Assembly (NCBI GenBank): GCA_001803565.1 | Contig: MHDQ01000292.1 | Location: 599-13,824 of the forward strand | Length of the DNA: 13,226 bases | Direction: 5' to 3' | DNA from: Nitrospinae bacterium RIFCSPLOWO2_12_FULL_45_22 | GTDB taxonomy: Bacteria > 2-12-FULL-45-22 | In this document: piece by piece, positions 2,696 through 9,874 of the stretch | Numbering within the stretch: the first letter of the stretch is position 1 | How the letters are laid out: the number at the start of each line of letters is the position of its first letter | Position numbers and translations under genes: made by a program | Notes under the pieces: model-generated | What the model saw: the letters and a program-made list of their open reading frames with translations, nothing else | What the model was told of the DNA's origin: nothing | Databases searched by the model: none

Positions 2696-3499
2696 ATGGA
2701 CATGGAAGAGTATTGGGGGTTAAAAGAGCCCCCGTTCGAGAATGTACCTGATCCGCGGTTTTTCTATGCCGCACCACAGCATGAGGAAGCTTTGACCAGA
2801 CTGATTTATGCGGCCAGCCGGAGAAAGGGTGCCGCGATGCTTACCGGAGATGTGGGGTGTGGAAAGACCCTTTTAAGCCGGGTCTTTATCCAGGGCCTCT
2901 CTAGCGACCGTTATGAAGTAGCCCTTATAGTTAATCCCGTCATGAATCCCTTAGACTTGATAAGAGAAGTTATTTATCAGTTTGGGATAAAAAATAAATA
3001 TTCTTCTAAGACACAGCTCTTACGCCTCCTGAACACAGAGTTAGCTAAAAATCTGCAACGGCAGAAAGATAGCGTTATCATTGTAGATGAGGCCCAGGCC
3101 ATTAGGGACCTTAACACCTTTGAAGAGCTGCGGTTGCTCTTAAACTTCCAGTTAAATGATCGCTTTTTATGCACCTTGATCCTATTTGGGCAGCCTGAGC
3201 TGCTAAATGTGGTGCGAAAGATCCCCCAGCTAGAACAGAGGATTGCTATAAAGTACCATATCAGACCTTTCAATCTTGAAGAAACCCTTAGTTACATAAA
3301 CATCAGGCTTCGAAAAGCAGGGACAGAAAGGATGCTCTTGAGCGAAAAGGCAATGCAGATCATCCATCAGTATTCCCAAGGAGTCCCCAGGAAGATCAAC
3401 AACCTCTGCGATCTTGCCCTCCTGGTAGGATTTAGCTCAAAGGTAAAAGTGGTTGACGAATCTCTTATATTAAAGATTATTGATGATGGCAGGGGATAG
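2696..3499 (+). CDS. XrtA/PEP-CTERM-locus secretion ATPase (ExeA/GspA-type AAA)
   Basis: A 267-residue AAA ATPase. It opens with the family hallmark YWGLKEPPFENVPDPRFFY (residues 6-24), then has Walker A GDVGCGKT (51-58), Walker B VIIVDEAQ (127-134), a sensor-like LILFGQPEL segment, and a C-terminal helical lid with GVPRKINNLCDLAL. Length and motifs fit the GspA/ExeA family, in particular the short version without a peptidoglycan-binding domain found in exosortase/PEP-CTERM exopolysaccharide loci ('putative secretion ATPase'). No membrane segment is visible, so it is cytoplasmic or peripheral. Its precise job in those loci is not established. I chose the ATG at 2696 from its ribosome binding site and because family members begin with M-x-x-(x)-Y-(W/F)-G-L. 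It is the first gene after the sigma-54 promoter and is followed after 2 nt by the HD-GYP gene, so the two are almost certainly co-transcribed and possibly translationally coupled. Confidence 0.88.
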   Translation: MDMEEYWGLKEPPFENVPDPRFFYAAPQHEEALTRLIYAASRRKGAAMLTGDVGCGKTLLSRVFIQGLSSDRYEVALIVNPVMNPLDLIREVIYQFGIKNKYSSKTQLLRLLNTELAKNLQRQKDSVIIVDEAQAIRDLNTFEELRLLLNFQLNDRFLCTLILFGQPELLNVVRKIPQLEQRIAIKYHIRPFNLEETLSYINIRLRKAGTERMLLSEKAMQIIHQYSQGVPRKINNLCDLALLVGFSSKVKVVDESLILKIIDDGRG

Positions 3500-3501
3500 A
3501 G

Positions 3502-4596
3502 ATGGTTAAACTAATAGACTTAATTAAGCAAGAAGGGGTTCCTGAGAGAAAAAACCTCTCAGACAAAGGAGGGTTGAGTTTTAAAACTATCTTAGCCTCA
3601 GAAGCGTCCTGCGAAGTACACTCTCCTGAGGATCTCAAGCGACCCTCAGAGAAAAAGCAAAAACAAGGGTTTCTACTCTATGAAAAGATGTGCAGTTTCA
3701 TAAGGGATATCACCGAAAAGATAGCTAAGAATGAAGGGTTTGCCCTGGAACGGGGGTTTGAGTTGATAGCTGAAGCTCTAAATCCTCCAGAGAATATCGA
3801 GCTCCTCTATTATTGGGCTCTTCATCCCCGGGAGGTCACGGACTTTCTAATTCGAAAACCGGTTAATGTGTCTGTCTTTTCGTTAAAGATGAGTAGGGGG
3901 TTGGGATACAGTCGGGATCAACAGCTAGAATTATGTATTGCTGCCATGTTACTTGATATAGGAATGGGGATGATCTCGCAGGAATTGCCCCACAAAGAAG
4001 GCTCTTTTACCCCTCAAGAACTAGAAGATATCCAGAAACATCCCATACACGGCTATGAGAAGATCCTTATCCTGGGAGAAAATTACCAATGGCTGGCAGA
4101 TATTGTGCTCCAAACCCATGAGAGGGAAGATGGTAGTGGTTATCCCCTGGGGCTTAAGGGAAAGGATATCCATGAATATGCCAAAATTATTGGAGTAGCT
4201 GATACGTTTGAAGCTCTGACCCATTACCGGCCTTATAGGAGACAACTCTCTCAAGCCGTTAAAGAGATTATAGGATCCCAAAAACATCTGTTTTCTTACC
4301 ATATCCTCAAGGTATTTATTCAGGAGATGACGGTCTTTCCTATCTCTAGCTATGTGAAGTTAAATTCTGGAGTCATCGGGAAGGTCATAACTACCAGCAA
4401 AGACCACCCCTTCCGTCCTACTATCGAGATAATATTCGATGCGGAAGGGAAAAAAGTCAATGGGCACAAGCTTATAAAGTTGAGGGAGGCCCCTTTGCTC
4501 CATATTATTGCGCCAGCAGATGAGTTAGAGGCAAATCAATATACTACGGGGGAGCAATGGCAAGAGGCAGAGGGCATTAGAGCTCTAGGGGTATAA
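3502..4596 (+). CDS. Degenerate HD-GYP domain protein
   Basis: A 364-residue protein with an HD-GYP fold whose catalytic metal site is largely lost. The recognisable frame is: VNVSVFSLKMSRGLGYS (121-137, where the family usually has His-Ser just before V-N-V; here Lys119-Pro120), LLDIGMGM (150-157, usual HDIGK; His is Leu151 and the Lys is lost), HPIHGYEKIL (180-189, intact), THEREDGSGYP (205-215, first His of the HHE replaced by Thr205), then ADTFEALTHYRPYR (233-246, intact GYP-family signature). So at least three expected metal-ligand histidines are missing while Asp152, His180, His206 and Asp234 remain. Phosphodiesterase activity on cyclic-di-GMP is therefore unlikely; binding or scaffolding is more likely. 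Residues 280-340 match the usual C-terminal extension of the family (FPISSYVKLNSGVIGKV). Residues 1-60 are basic and probably disordered. It starts 2 nt after the ATPase stop, with AGGGG 6 nt before the ATG, suggesting they work together. Confidence 0.85.
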   Translation: MVKLIDLIKQEGVPERKNLSDKGGLSFKTILASEASCEVHSPEDLKRPSEKKQKQGFLLYEKMCSFIRDITEKIAKNEGFALERGFELIAEALNPPENIELLYYWALHPREVTDFLIRKPVNVSVFSLKMSRGLGYSRDQQLELCIAAMLLDIGMGMISQELPHKEGSFTPQELEDIQKHPIHGYEKILILGENYQWLADIVLQTHEREDGSGYPLGLKGKDIHEYAKIIGVADTFEALTHYRPYRRQLSQAVKEIIGSQKHLFSYHILKVFIQEMTVFPISSYVKLNSGVIGKVITTSKDHPFRPTIEIIFDAEGKKVNGHKLIKLREAPLLHIIAPADELEANQYTTGEQWQEAEGIRALGV

Positions 4597-4752: not shown

Positions 4753-5928
4753 TTGAGAAAGAATGTGTGGTTTATTGGCCTGCTAGCTATAGCGGCTATA
4801 GGGTTTGCCTGTGTCAGTACCTCGCCAATCCCGGCTACTAAGATGAGCGAGTCTGTCATGGCACCCCCTCAACTACCTGCTAGTTTACCTCCTCCACCGA
4901 TAGGTAATGGGGTAGAAAGAAACAAGGTCTATAGAGTAATATTTGACGTCCCCCAGTACCTCGTTGGACCAGGAGATGTCCTGGAGATTGTGCTGCGGCG
5001 CCGCAGTGAGGAGGAGGCTCACACGGTAGTGGTCAGACCGAATGGGACTATCTCCGTATCTTTCCTTGACGATCTAAAGGTATTAGGGCTAACCACCAGC
5101 CAGATAGACGCCCTTATAACCCAGGAGCTGGATCGGTTCGTTAAAAACCCCAGGGTAGATGTGCTGGTGAAGGGATATACTAGCAAAAAAGTCTCCCTCT
5201 TTGGAGAAATAAATATCCTCGAGACCGGAGTTTCCGGGCCAGGAAACTATCCTCTAACAGGCAAGACTACCCTGATAGACCTGCTGGTAACAGCCGGAGG
5301 GGCTAAAACTACCGCTGACCTCAAGAGAGTGAAACTCATCAGGGAGGGGGAATCCTATATGCTTAATCTGTATAAGGCCATGTTTGAAGGAAATATACAG
5401 CACAATATCATACTGGATGCTGGAGATGTAGTGATAGTACCTGAGCTTTCCACCATAGCAGATAAGGTAATAGTCTTGGGAGAGGTGGGCACTCCAGGGA
5501 TACATCCCTTCAAACAACAAATAGATGTTGCCTCGGCCGTAGGCCTGGCTGGTGGTTATGGGCTGGATGCTGCAGAGGAAAGTACCCTGGTCATCCGAAA
5601 AGATATTACTAATCCCAATACTCCCAGGGTATTCCGAGTAGACCTTAAGAAGCTCTTCAAGAAGGGTGACCTAGCTCAGAATATAGCTTTGCAGAGTGGG
5701 GATATTGTCTATGTCCCCAGAAGCTTTATTGCTGATGCAGCCTATTTTGCATCCCGTATTACCCCTATCTTGGATGTCCTTACTTATCCTGGCGTATACC
5801 GGAATTTATATACTACCGGTGGAGGGTTACGGATTGACACGGGCTTCCCTAAGACCAGGGAAGGCGCTCCTAGTACTATCTTCACTATCCCGGTCACCAG
5901 AGGTCAAACTGGGGGCACGGGGCAATAG
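4753..5928 (+). CDS. Wza-like polysaccharide export outer-membrane lipoprotein
   Basis: A 391-residue protein starting at TTG 4753. The TTG is supported by GGAAGAGG (4741-4748) just upstream and by the signal peptide that follows: Arg2-Lys3, a hydrophobic core at residues 5-18 and Cys20 in GFAC as lipidation site. The first in-frame ATG comes only after the signal (residue 31). A proline-rich linker (38-50) is followed by the Poly_export domain (about 68-142, beginning with YLVGPGDVLEIV and including VVVRPNGTISV), then two SLBB-type beta-grasp domains (about 146-230, with GDVVIVP at its end, and about 237-323, with GDIVYVP at its end). The 325-350 region could form the C-terminal amphipathic outer-membrane helix seen in Wza. 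It would form the outer-membrane exit channel for the polysaccharide made and length-controlled by the next gene product. Members of this family are typical of XrtA/PEP-CTERM EPS loci. Stop and next start are 49 bp apart. Confidence 0.9.
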   Translation: MRKNVWFIGLLAIAAIGFACVSTSPIPATKMSESVMAPPQLPASLPPPPIGNGVERNKVYRVIFDVPQYLVGPGDVLEIVLRRRSEEEAHTVVVRPNGTISVSFLDDLKVLGLTTSQIDALITQELDRFVKNPRVDVLVKGYTSKKVSLFGEINILETGVSGPGNYPLTGKTTLIDLLVTAGGAKTTADLKRVKLIREGESYMLNLYKAMFEGNIQHNIILDAGDVVIVPELSTIADKVIVLGEVGTPGIHPFKQQIDVASAVGLAGGYGLDAAEESTLVIRKDITNPNTPRVFRVDLKKLFKKGDLAQNIALQSGDIVYVPRSFIADAAYFASRITPILDVLTYPGVYRNLYTTGGGLRIDTGFPKTREGAPSTIFTIPVTRGQTGGTGQ

Positions 5929-5977: not shown

Positions 5978-8224
5978 ATGAGCAAATATGATCTGAACTT
6001 AAGGGATTACTGGCGGATATTACGTAGGAGGAAAAATATTGTCATCTTATCTATCTTATTACTTGGTTCCTTTTCCACTTCCCTGGCCACTATCCATAAG
6101 CCTCCCCCGCTTTACGAGGCAACGGCCAGTGTCAAGGTAGAACAGGTTAGTACCCTCACCGGGCTTTATCTAGAAACTATCTCCTGGAACTCTGCCGACC
6201 CTTTGGAGACCCAGGCAGCCATTATCAGGAGCTACCCAATACTGGAAAAAGTATCCCAGCGGCTTCACCTGATCCCAGAAGGACTCACTACCCAGGAAAT
6301 TCAGCAAAATCAAGAATATCTCAAGGTAGTCCTGAGCCTAAAAGACCAAATTACTACTGAAAAACTAGGATTTACCAATATCATCAATATCACCGCAACC
6401 GCTCCTGAACCTAAATACGCCCAACAATTAGCCAACATCATCGCTCAGGTGTATCGGGAAGAAAATATCCGGGAGAAGAACAAACGGACCCGTGATGCCC
6501 GCCTCTTTATCGAATCCCAGCTCCGAGTATTAGAAAAGAAACTGGAGGAATCCCAGGAAAGGGTCCGGACCTTCAGGGAAACGAATAAGCTTATCTCCCT
6601 GGATTCCCAGAGTGATGTGGCGCTAAAACACCTGGCCGAAGCGGAGTCACAGCACAATGTTCTGAATAAGTCCCGGGAGGAGCTAGCTCTTATCTTGAAA
6701 CAGTTGAGAAACGGACAAGGCATACCAGAAAAGACTATGGAGGGGCTCTTTACTGACCAGACCAGCCCTATCTTTTCTAAACTTAACAGCCATCTGGTTG
6801 ACTTAAGACTCAGGAGGGATACCCTCCTCCTGGATTACCAGCCTAACCATCCCGAGGTACAGGAGGTAAACTCCCAGATTGACGAAGTGACAAAGAATAT
6901 GATCCAGGATATCTCTAGCCAGGAGAAGGCTATCCAGAGACAGGAGGAGGCACTTAAGAAGGAGATAGAGAGGTTTAAAGGAGATGTCACTGCCTTGCCA
7001 GAAAAAGGCCTAACCCTGGCAAGACTGGAACAGGAAGTAAAGATGAACCAGGAAATCTATACCCTCTTGAAGACCAAGCATCAGGAGGCCCTGATTAAAG
7101 AGGCCGAACAGGTGGAAGAAGTAACCATCATCAAACCTTCCCTGGAACCAAAGGCACCCACCAATCCCCCTAAAATCATGACTACCGGTCTGATAGGGAC
7201 AATTATGGGAATTATCCTTGGCCTGGCCCTCGCCTTTGTTGTTGAGACCATGGATACCTCTATCGGGGCTATCGAGGATGTAGAGAGTTTGTTGGGGGTT
7301 CCGGTAGTGGGTGTAATACCTCATGTAGACTTAGATGAAATGAGGGAAATGATCCGGACAAGATATCGCCAGGCCGAGGACGAGGAGACCTCCAGACGAT
7401 GGATGCGGCTAGCGACCCATTTTATCCCCCATTCCATGTTAGCAGAAAGCTACCGGACCCTCAGGACCAATATCCAATTTATCAACTTTGAACGGAGCGT
7501 CAAGATAATATCGTTTACCAGCTCTTCCCCACTAGAGGGTAAGACAACCATTGTGTCTAATCTCGCTATTGCGGCTTCCCAGGCGGGTAAAAAGACCTTA
7601 TTGATAGAGTCTGACCTAAGAAAGCCCAGTATCAGCCGGATACTGGGCCTGGAAAGGTTCCCTGGCCTGACCGATATCCTTTTGGGTAATTATGAATGGC
7701 GCGAGGTAGTCAGGAACACGGCTGACCTCATAATGGGGAAAATGGGTATGGAGGAAGTGTTGTTTACTCCCGGCCTGGATAACCTTAGCATAATAACCTC
7801 CGGCCATATCCCCCCTAACCCCTCTGAGCTGCTCAGCTCGTCCAGGATGGCGGAATTCATTTCCCAGGTATCCAGAGAATACGACCTGGTTCTATTGGAC
7901 TCCTCTCCGATCCTGTCTTCGGCTGATGCCGCCGTACTGGGCTCGAAGATAGATGGGGTTGTTATGGTTTATCTGGTAGGGAAGATTGCCCGGGGAGCCC
8001 TCAAACGGGCTAAGGTACAGTTAGAGCAGGTAAATGCCAAGGTCTTGGGAGTAGTATTAAACGGCCTTAGGCCTGAGATAAGCCCTGATTTTAAGGATTT
8101 GAGATACGATTACGAATATGCCTATGGAGCGGGGGATAATAACGAAAACAACTCCAGGCGTTGGTCAGCAGTGCTTCAATATATAAAAAGCCGGAAAAAA
8201 ATGCCTGCACAAGTAACATCTTAA
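5978..8224 (+). CDS. Wzz/BY-kinase: chain-length determinant fused to tyrosine autokinase
   Basis: A 748-residue inner-membrane protein. The N-terminal Wzz domain has a first membrane helix at about 20-38, a long periplasmic part with coiled coils (about 165-250 and 300-385), the proline-rich EPKAPTNPPK before the second helix, and the helix itself at about 403-422. The cytoplasmic kinase domain has Walker A SPLEGKTT (517-524), Walker A' LLIESDLRKP (541-550; the first Asp of the usual D-x-D is Glu544), and Walker B YDLVLLDSSP (635-644). A C-terminal tyrosine cluster, Tyr710, 712, 714 and 716 (YDYEYAY), is the expected autophosphorylation site. It would control polymer length and cycle between kinase oligomer states together with the Wza-like neighbour. 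In many proteobacterial XrtA loci the chain-length and kinase parts are separate genes; here they form one chain. The ATG at 5978 has only a weak AGGTCG upstream. Confidence 0.93.
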   Translation: MSKYDLNLRDYWRILRRRKNIVILSILLLGSFSTSLATIHKPPPLYEATASVKVEQVSTLTGLYLETISWNSADPLETQAAIIRSYPILEKVSQRLHLIPEGLTTQEIQQNQEYLKVVLSLKDQITTEKLGFTNIINITATAPEPKYAQQLANIIAQVYREENIREKNKRTRDARLFIESQLRVLEKKLEESQERVRTFRETNKLISLDSQSDVALKHLAEAESQHNVLNKSREELALILKQLRNGQGIPEKTMEGLFTDQTSPIFSKLNSHLVDLRLRRDTLLLDYQPNHPEVQEVNSQIDEVTKNMIQDISSQEKAIQRQEEALKKEIERFKGDVTALPEKGLTLARLEQEVKMNQEIYTLLKTKHQEALIKEAEQVEEVTIIKPSLEPKAPTNPPKIMTTGLIGTIMGIILGLALAFVVETMDTSIGAIEDVESLLGVPVVGVIPHVDLDEMREMIRTRYRQAEDEETSRRWMRLATHFIPHSMLAESYRTLRTNIQFINFERSVKIISFTSSSPLEGKTTIVSNLAIAASQAGKKTLLIESDLRKPSISRILGLERFPGLTDILLGNYEWREVVRNTADLIMGKMGMEEVLFTPGLDNLSIITSGHIPPNPSELLSSSRMAEFISQVSREYDLVLLDSSPILSSADAAVLGSKIDGVVMVYLVGKIARGALKRAKVQLEQVNAKVLGVVLNGLRPEISPDFKDLRYDYEYAYGAGDNNENNSRRWSAVLQYIKSRKKMPAQVTS

Positions 8225-8289: not shown

Positions 8290-9075
8290 ATGTATGCCGT
8301 TGAAACTCTAAATCTGACTAAGATATTCAGACCCGCGAGGAATATGTTCAGTCTTAAGTCTCCCCCGGTTAAAGCCATAACCGCCCTATATCAACTGAAT
8401 CTACAGATAAGAAAAGGTGAGATATTTGCCGTTTTGGGGCCCAATGGTGCCGGCAAGACCACCCTGATAAAGATTCTCTGCTCTCTTATTACTCCAACCA
8501 GCGGGACTGCCCTGATAAATGGTTACGATGTAATAAAAGATGAAGATAAGATTAAATCCCTTATCGGATTGGTTATTGGGGAAGAAAGGAGTTTTTACTG
8601 GAGATTGACTGGAAGGGAAAACTTAGAATTTTTTGGCGTGCTACATAACTTGAGTTTACGCGAGGTGCGAAAGAAAGCCGAGGCTATCATGGAACTGCTG
8701 GAGATAGAGGACCCCGATAAGAGATTCCACGAATATTCCACTGGTAATAAGCAAAAACTTGCCCTGGCAAGGTGCCTTCTTTCAAATTCAGAAATTATTT
8801 TTATGGATGAACCTACCAAAAGCCTCGATCCAGGTGTGGCATCAAGGCTTAAGAAGTTTATCAAGGAGGTATTGGTTGAAAAGGGAAAAAAGACCGTATT
8901 TTTTTCTACTCATATGATTCAGGAAGCGGAAGAGTTAGCAGATAGAATAGCCATTATGGACAAAGGACTGATTAAGGCATGCGGTTCTCTAAACGAGCTA
9001 AAGGTCAATGGAGACTCACTGCTCGATCTCTTTAATCGGGTTACAGCAAAGAGGGGGGCCAGAATTGCTATTTGA
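8290..9075 (+). CDS. ABC-2 type exporter, ATP-binding protein
   Basis: A 261-residue ATPase subunit. It has Walker A GPNGAGKT (50-57), an ABC signature in the STGNKQ form (150-155) common in ABC-2 exporters, Walker B EIIFMDEP (168-175), D-loop SLDP (178-181) and the H-loop histidine His208 in STHMIQEAEELADR. The usual Q-loop glutamine is replaced by IGEER (96-100) followed by SFYWRLTGREN. Insertion FRPARNMFSLKSPP (13-26) before the first beta-sheet is also seen in this type. It pairs with the overlapping permease gene. The substrate is unknown; a lipid, drug or glycan are all possible, and location beside an EPS cluster favours an envelope molecule only weakly. There is a TATAAT close upstream and no ribosome binding site. 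Stop and permease start overlap by 11 bp if TTG 9065 is right. Confidence 0.9.
   Translation: MYAVETLNLTKIFRPARNMFSLKSPPVKAITALYQLNLQIRKGEIFAVLGPNGAGKTTLIKILCSLITPTSGTALINGYDVIKDEDKIKSLIGLVIGEERSFYWRLTGRENLEFFGVLHNLSLREVRKKAEAIMELLEIEDPDKRFHEYSTGNKQKLALARCLLSNSEIIFMDEPTKSLDPGVASRLKKFIKEVLVEKGKKTVFFSTHMIQEAEELADRIAIMDKGLIKACGSLNELKVNGDSLLDLFNRVTAKRGARIAI
9051..9058 (+). promoter_or_regulatory. Ribosome binding site favouring the TTG start of the permease
   Basis: GAGGGGGG lies 6 nt before TTG 9065, in frame with the permease. The alternative ATG at 9008 has only AAGGTC near it and would add 19 polar residues that do not look like permease sequence and overlap the ATPase gene by 68 bp. Confidence 0.5.
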
Positions 9076-9874
9076 GAAGGTCTGGCTCTTTTTGAAAAGG
9101 GACTTTCTAACCACTTCCAGCTATAAATTTGCCTTTTTCTGGGATGCAGCCGGCATCATAGGAACCATACTTACCTTCTTCTTTATCGGAGAGCTATTTA
9201 AGAATAGTCACGTCCCTTTGCTTGATCAATATGGTGGCGACTATTTCTCTTTTGTTATTATTGGGGTTGCCTTCTCAAGCTATCTGGGCTCTGCCTTAGG
9301 AAATTTTGGCGGGGTGATCGGCAATGAGCAGGGGCTGGGTACTATGGAGGCATTAATTATGACTCCCACCAGGGTTTCTACCATACTGGTGGCGGGCTCA
9401 GTCTGGAATCTCCTCTTTACCACGCTCAGGGTGGCATGTTATTTTTTGGTGGGAATATTCTTTTTCCATATGGATTTAAAAATGACCAATCTACCGGCTA
9501 TCATAACTATACTAACACTGTCCATGATCCCTTTTATTTCACTGGGAATCATCTCAGCAAGTTTCATACTGGCCTTTAAAAGGGGCGATCCTATCAGTTT
9601 CCTCTTCCATGGGGCATCCAAGTTCCTGGCCGGGGCATTTTTCCCCCTAGGGATTCTGCCTTTATGGTTCAAGAAGCTTTCACTTTTTATACCCCTTACT
9701 TATTCTCTAAGGGCACTGAGAGAGGTACTTTTGGCAGAAGGCACAATGAAGGAGTTATGGCCCGAGTTAGCTGTCCTTTTACTATTTTCTATAATCCTAT
9801 TTCCCATTTCACTAAAATGTTTTAAAGTGGCCTTAAAGATGGCCAAGCAGCAGGGAAGCTTCTGCCAGTATTAA
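9065..9874 (+). CDS. ABC-2 type exporter, membrane permease
   Basis: A 269-residue integral membrane protein when started at TTG 9065 (M-L-F-E-K-V-W). It begins with a cytoplasmic amphipathic stretch (LFLKRDFLTTSSYK), typical of ABC-2 permeases, followed by about six hydrophobic segments: around residues 24-43, 62-80, 105-132, 140-165, 185-210 and 240-260. The loop GNEQGLGTMEALIMTPT (about 87-103) matches the conserved E-x-x-x-G-T-x-E-x-L-x-x-(S/T)-P motif of the family. It forms the transmembrane part of the exporter with the upstream ATPase. The substrate cannot be inferred from the sequence. The 453 bp after the stop hold no gene, so the operon ends here; no classical terminator was seen. 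Confidence 0.88.
   Translation: MLFEKVWLFLKRDFLTTSSYKFAFFWDAAGIIGTILTFFFIGELFKNSHVPLLDQYGGDYFSFVIIGVAFSSYLGSALGNFGGVIGNEQGLGTMEALIMTPTRVSTILVAGSVWNLLFTTLRVACYFLVGIFFFHMDLKMTNLPAIITILTLSMIPFISLGIISASFILAFKRGDPISFLFHGASKFLAGAFFPLGILPLWFKKLSLFIPLTYSLRALREVLLAEGTMKELWPELAVLLLFSIILFPISLKCFKVALKMAKQQGSFCQY

Follow-up and report, generated by a model that had tools for sequence, protein, structure and literature searches.

A degenerate HD-GYP protein paired with an ExeA-like ATPase at polysaccharide export loci: a candidate non-hydrolysing c-di-GMP receptor

The ATPase/HD-GYP locus

The window is the whole stretch of DNA that was analysed, 13,226 nucleotides from Nitrospinae bacterium RIFCSPLOWO2_12_FULL_45_22. 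It carries an ExeA-like ATPase gene (ORF 2687/2696–3499) followed on the same strand, after a gap of 2 nt, by the gene for a degenerate HD-GYP protein (3502–4596). As the initial annotation had it, this closely spaced pair heads an EPS export cluster, and profile matches identify Wza-like, Wzz–Wzc and ABC-2 genes downstream. The features of the locus are as follows.

2696..3499 (possible GTG start 2687), + strand: ExeA-like AAA_22 ATPase, a relative of the XrtA/PEP-CTERM ATPase (Pfam, TIGRFAM)
3502..4596, + strand: ATPase-paired degenerate HD-GYP protein, 364 aa (Pfam, alignment, model)
3502..3537, + strand: N-terminal peptide MVKLIDLIKQEG, residues 1–12, putative ATPase docking tag (common to paired HD-GYPs; helix 4–9 in the model)
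3538..3648, + strand: linker, residues 13–49, probably flexible (pLDDT mostly < 50)
3649..3822, + strand: N-terminal helical region, residues 50–107, no Pfam match (model; the Bd1817 alignment begins at residue 49)
3844..4326, + strand: HD-GYP core, residues 115–275 (Pfam, model, structure match)
3856..3858, + strand: codon AAA, K119 for the first metal-ligand His (PmGH H189; alignment)
3952..3954, + strand: codon CTT, L151 for the His of the HD motif (PmGH H221; alignment)
4114..4116, + strand: codon ACC, T205 for the first His of the HH pair (PmGH H276; alignment)
4141..4143, + strand: Y214 of GYP, a phosphate contact in PmGH (Y285) and DvhD (Y621) (alignment)
4228..4239, + strand: R243-P-Y-R246, nucleotide contacts (PmGH R314/K317, DvhD R650/Y652; alignment)
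4351..4536, + strand: C-terminal beta domain, residues 284–345, no Pfam match (model; common to paired members)
4753..5928, + strand: Wza-like outer-membrane polysaccharide export protein (Poly_export, SLBB; profile matches)
5978..8224, + strand: Wzz chain-length domain fused to a Wzc-type tyrosine autokinase (TIGR01007 over cut-off)
8290..9075, + strand: ABC-2 exporter ATPase subunit (the pair has this neighbour in G092, G356 and L064 too)
9008..9874, + strand: ABC-2 exporter permease (profile matches)

The ATPase, which may start at GTG 2687 or ATG 2696 and ends at 3499, matches AAA_22 in Pfam (1.3e-22). It shares both ATPase family and EPS context with the XrtA/PEP-CTERM ATPase (TIGR03015), but its score against that model, 227.6 bits, lies under the equivalog cut-off of 324.5 and places it outside the equivalog. 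No XrtA or PEP-CTERM sorting gene is present among the window genes scanned. The fold of the ATPase, modelled on the homologue at locus L103, resembles those of Cdc6/ORC, RuvB and TnsC.

The HD-GYP protein matches HD_5 (1.8e-25) and retains the DGSGYP sequence, bearing out the earlier claim that fold and GYP motif are kept. Its model has a mean pLDDT of 84, with residues 4–9 helical and the linker at low confidence. The best structural match is Bd1817 of Bdellovibrio (3TM8, 3TMB; Z 24.6 over 219 residues, N-terminal helices included), a catalytically inactive protein which differs from the window protein in its di-iron centre, its closed lid and the absence of the GYP Tyr. PmGH (4mcw, Z 19.3), DvhD and PA4781 follow, all at about Z 18–19. 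Pfam gives no T2SSB match in the HD-GYP partner. The window protein is the sole copy of its type in the genome; three other HD-GYP matches are weak, two of these being ordinary HD-GYPs. The genome also has seven GGDEF and three PilZ matches, which makes it probable that the organism synthesises c-di-GMP. Neither a c-di-GMP riboswitch nor any other Rfam RNA is found in the window at gathering score. Upstream, a 407-aa ORF on the reverse strand (302–1522) has no Pfam match.

Occurrence of the pair and losses among the metal ligands

The pair is conserved well outside the window genome, the expectation on which the initial annotation had staked its case. Sixty adjacent, same-strand ATPase/HD-GYP pairs were collected from at least eight phyla. 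The predicted proximity to wza and wzc also holds in many cases, Wza or Wzc lying in the same fetched stretch for 29 of the 60 pairs, many contigs ending early; when ABC exporters are included the figure is 33 of 60, many loci being short. A contig scan with a single HD-GYP sequence as query gave no match, and an alignment of the ATPase was used instead. Scanning named genomes in this way recovered 80 loci, roughly half of them paired, a share which is a biased estimate of how often the ATPase has an HD-GYP partner since the alignment came from paired loci. The pair-bearing groups among named genomes are Desulfobacterota, Rokubacteria, Planctomycetota (including Scalindua), Omnitrophota, Aminicenantes, Nitrospirota, Elulimicrobiota, Gemmatimonadota and Zetaproteobacteria. 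A survey of 386 genomes yielded further pairs, giving 17 family groups including that of the window. Searches of an open-access library for HD-GYP proteins next to Wzc, ExeA or PEP-CTERM loci turned up no title or abstract that describes this pair. Degenerate HD-GYP receptors are already known; in the open-access literature searched, neither their coupling to an ATPase in EPS clusters nor the N-terminal tag appears to have been described.

Active HD-GYP phosphodiesterases carry a seven-ligand set of H, HD, H, HH and D. An alignment with 35 other HD-GYPs substantiates the claim that at least three ligand histidines are gone from the window protein: K119, L151 and T205 replace three of the seven, leaving D152, H180, H206 and D234. 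Sequence decay or a frame error was considered as the source of these three residues and ruled out, the frame being open and the flanking residues conserved. Replacing H189, H221 or H276 of the active enzyme PmGH by alanine, at the positions equivalent to the three altered ones, essentially abolishes activity (PMC4159591). Going by its residues, the window protein is very unlikely to hydrolyse c-di-GMP.

Ligand loss is the rule among paired proteins. All seven ligands are intact in only 4 of 60 paired HD-GYPs as against 78 of 98 unpaired ones, the latter counting only those with every ligand column filled and coming mostly from the same 22 genomes, otherwise from further genomes of the survey. 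The difference persists after removal of rows more than 70% identical (3/48 versus 71/89) and after thinning at 50% identity (2/32 versus 48/62). Since the paired proteins cluster on the tree and degeneration is concentrated in one part of it, Fisher-type p-values on these contrasts do not test independent events; a phylogenetically independent comparison offered few lineage pairs. The rarity of intact sets suggests that catalysis may be dispensable in paired HD-GYPs. Intact homologues in the same context, the finding that was to count against a dedicated sensor, do occur, but as a small minority of four (the first copy at L068, and L079, L150 and L151), from Omnitrophota and two sister genomes (L150, L151); paired members are overwhelmingly ligand-deficient.

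The expectation that members would share the same lost ligands fails, since the positions lost vary from one lineage to another. H205 is replaced by E, I, A, Q, V or T, H151 by Y, I, F, E or L, and H119 by N, K or Q, and the triple loss of the window protein recurs in no other member found. The commonest loss is that of H205, where Glu is the most frequent residue (19 of 48 paired), followed by Ile, Ala and others.

Such free variation at the ligand positions is what relaxed selection would produce in a decaying duplicate that lay beside the ATPase by chance. The conservation across phyla of the pair itself, the N-terminal peptide, the pocket and the C-terminal domain disfavours this explanation, which is judged very improbable. 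A residual or altered enzyme merits somewhat more attention. A mono- or binuclear site formed by D152, H180, H206 and D234, with E205 in relatives, might hydrolyse c-di-GMP or another nucleotide, providing phosphodiesterase activity locally where export takes place. D152, H180, H206 and D234 are mostly kept across paired members, Glu at position 205 could still bind metal, so that some relatives may be enzymes, and intact paired copies exist. Against this stand the scarcity of those copies and, for the window protein, the presence of Lys, Leu and Thr at ligands whose alanine mutants are inactive in PmGH (PMC4159591); a catalytic role is accordingly judged improbable.

Nucleotide pocket, N-terminal peptide and probable coupling to the ATPase

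The PmGH residues that touch c-di-GMP, Y285, R314 and K317, correspond to Y214, R243 and R246 of the window protein (PMC4159591), while the DvhD contacts Y621, R650 and Y652 align with Y214, R243 and Y245 (PMC13090378). Y214 and R243 are conserved in most paired members whereas Y245 is not. The number of changes at each position was estimated on a tree of 124 HD-GYPs, comparing 79 ATPase-locus with 42 unpaired rows; three Zetaproteobacteria copies (KHHA...) were left out of the counts as they may be misaligned at the ligand columns. In the ATPase-locus rows the minimum is 21 changes at ligand 205, 13 at 151 and 9 at 119, and 1 each at G213 and P215, 2 at E207, 3 at Y214, 4 at R243 and 6 at R246. 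The unpaired rows require 2, 3 and 1 changes at the same three ligands, 7 at E207 and 12 at R246. Among paired members the nucleotide-pocket residues E207, Y214, R243 and R246 remain conserved.

This combination has a precedent in DvhD (DVU1020; 9RBZ/9RC0), a metal-free c-di-GMP receptor of Desulfovibrio vulgaris described in 2026 by crystal structure and assays, which binds c-di-GMP without hydrolysis, changes conformation and belongs to a system controlling surface adhesins (PMC13090378). The window protein has both features of a DvhD-like receptor: the metal ligands are lost (HD to SQ in DvhD) and the contact residues, namely the GYP Tyr and the RxYR loop, are kept. The two differ in their setting. 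DvhD has a dCache-PAS-HD-GYP architecture, lies in the membrane and is linked to a protease, whereas the window protein has no membrane part in its model and has an ATPase partner, an N-terminal peptide, a C-terminal beta domain and polysaccharide export neighbours. Judged by its conserved residues, the paired HD-GYP probably binds c-di-GMP.

The domain could instead be an adaptor that works independently of nucleotide, a scaffold through which the ATPase is recruited to the export machinery, with the pocket kept for folding or for a protein partner. There are exceptions to pocket conservation which fit this idea: in several Rokubacteria copies Phe takes the place of the GYP Tyr and R243 is missing, and a fused protein at L103 keeps the domain despite the loss of its GYP loop, so the domain may be only an adaptor in these cases. 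In addition, RpfG reportedly needs its GYP motif to bind GGDEF proteins (PMC4159591), and the pocket of the nearest fold, Bd1817, is shut by its lid. The equivalents of the PmGH and DvhD nucleotide contacts, R243, R246 and Y214, are nonetheless kept in most members and have changed less often than the metal ligands, and as a general account the adaptor is considered unlikely, with c-di-GMP binding preferred.

Many paired HD-GYPs open with a short peptide, typically MVR-[LIM]-SD-[IL]-[IVL]-[KR], followed by a linker; that of the window protein starts MVKLIDLIKQ. A strict form of the pattern occurs in 31 of 60 paired and 1 of 110 unpaired HD-GYPs, a contrast which is descriptive since the pattern was written after viewing these sequences, and in 37 of 1939 ORFs of at least 200 aa, paired ones included. 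About half of the paired proteins depart from it. More distant ATPases of the wider family are followed by genes for CheW (MELAKIRNKA), HTH_17 (MNLVDAIRMAS) or T2SSB/GspB (MSLIYEALTKAE) proteins, and these partners too open with a short amphipathic peptide that leads into a linker. We infer that the N-terminal peptide may act as a docking tag on the ATPase.

At L103 (6995–9268), from a Thermodesulfovibrionia MAG, the ATPase and a degenerate HD-GYP are encoded in a single ORF of 757 aa. Only the ATPase and linker of this fused protein were folded; in the ATPase-plus-peptide model the confidence of the peptide helix is moderate, at about 70. A hydrophobic, probably transmembrane segment lies close to the C-terminus of the fusion. 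The DUF3391 domain often precedes HD-GYP domains. GspA and GspB, the pair of this ATPase type that has been characterised, also occur as natural fusions, and DUF3391 is present in some GspBs or in their neighbours (PMC9239104). Fusion at L103 and in GspAB fits a physical coupling of the HD-GYP to the ATPase, which we regard as likely. Separately, a 160-aa ORF following the ATPase at L133 (5852–6334) has a peptide (MLKLSQVIKKG) and linker and no Pfam domain, and resembles a partner whose HD-GYP domain has gone while its tag remains.

A proposed mechanism and other partners of the ATPase

The recurrence of the pair across many phyla, with ligands lost and pocket kept, suggests that a c-di-GMP sensor is coupled to an ATPase of export or assembly. 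The HD-GYP domain would have too few metal ligands for hydrolysis while its pocket still held c-di-GMP. The MVKLIDLIKQ peptide, on its flexible linker, would dock onto the ExeA-like ATPase encoded upstream, as GspB does with GspA. Binding or release of c-di-GMP would alter the conformation or dimerisation of the receptor, and this change would switch the ATPase, which would then help the Wza/Wzc (or ABC) export machinery to assemble or to work and so influence EPS. Taken as a whole, the reading of a non-hydrolysing receptor, tethered by its peptide to the ATPase and gating polysaccharide export or assembly, stands in our judgement at an even balance; whether the HD-GYP/ATPase pair controls EPS export is likewise a claim that could equally well hold or fail.

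The closest parallel for the tether is GspA/ExeA with GspB/ExeB in type II secretion, where the ATPase belongs to the same wider family and the neighbour's product opens with a short peptide. At the window locus there is an adjacent partner with such a peptide and linker, but not a T2SSB-domain membrane partner. A typical GspA includes transmembrane and peptidoglycan-binding regions, and its partner GspB sits in the membrane, whereas the partner in the window is a cytoplasmic HD-GYP. Tentatively, ExeA-like AAA+ ATPases might form a general plug-in platform on which HD-GYP, CheW, GspB and HTH partners dock by a common short N-terminal peptide, the HD-GYP branch wiring c-di-GMP directly into polysaccharide export through a non-catalytic receptor.

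To our knowledge, control of Wza/Wzc-type capsule or EPS export by c-di-GMP is known in few systems, mostly through PilZ or degenerate EAL/GGDEF receptors. A phylum-spanning ATPase/HD-GYP pair would add a new type of receptor to these and would suggest what the secretion ATPase of EPS and PEP-CTERM loci, so far unexplained, might do. If the receptor reading is true, probably many proteins that carry the annotation of HD-GYP phosphodiesterase are in fact sensors. This reading can be tested directly by binding and pull-down assays.

The ATPase is also found in other company. In Geobacter-type and other genomes (L113, L120, L121, L110, L124, L156, L158–L161, L163, L168) it is followed by a product that mostly begins M[ED][LI][AS]K[IL]RxKA and continues into a linker. 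Those products of the Geobacter-type downstream genes that were tested against Pfam carry a CheW domain, which suggests a chemosensory version of the same ATPase–partner arrangement. In Armatimonadota/Fimbriimonadia (L094, L095, L106, L115) the next gene encodes a protein of about 130 aa (MNLVDAIRMAS...; HTH_17 in L106), and at L106 a pilM-like gene comes after the HTH_17 gene. At ten loci (L078, L086, L096, L112, L118, L119, L126, L128, L139, L144) the ATPase lies directly 5' of a PIG-L deacetylase-like gene (MKILAIGAHPDDLEYGCGG), without an HD-GYP. Several of these PIG-L-type loci have the ATPase directly 3' of a gene containing VHQPQYLPWLGYF; the arrangement as a whole makes a second conserved operon context. 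Finally, L004 and L186–L190 have about one protein per genome, of roughly 510–680 aa, that matches HD_5 only from about position 56, the first half of the domain looking diverged or interrupted.
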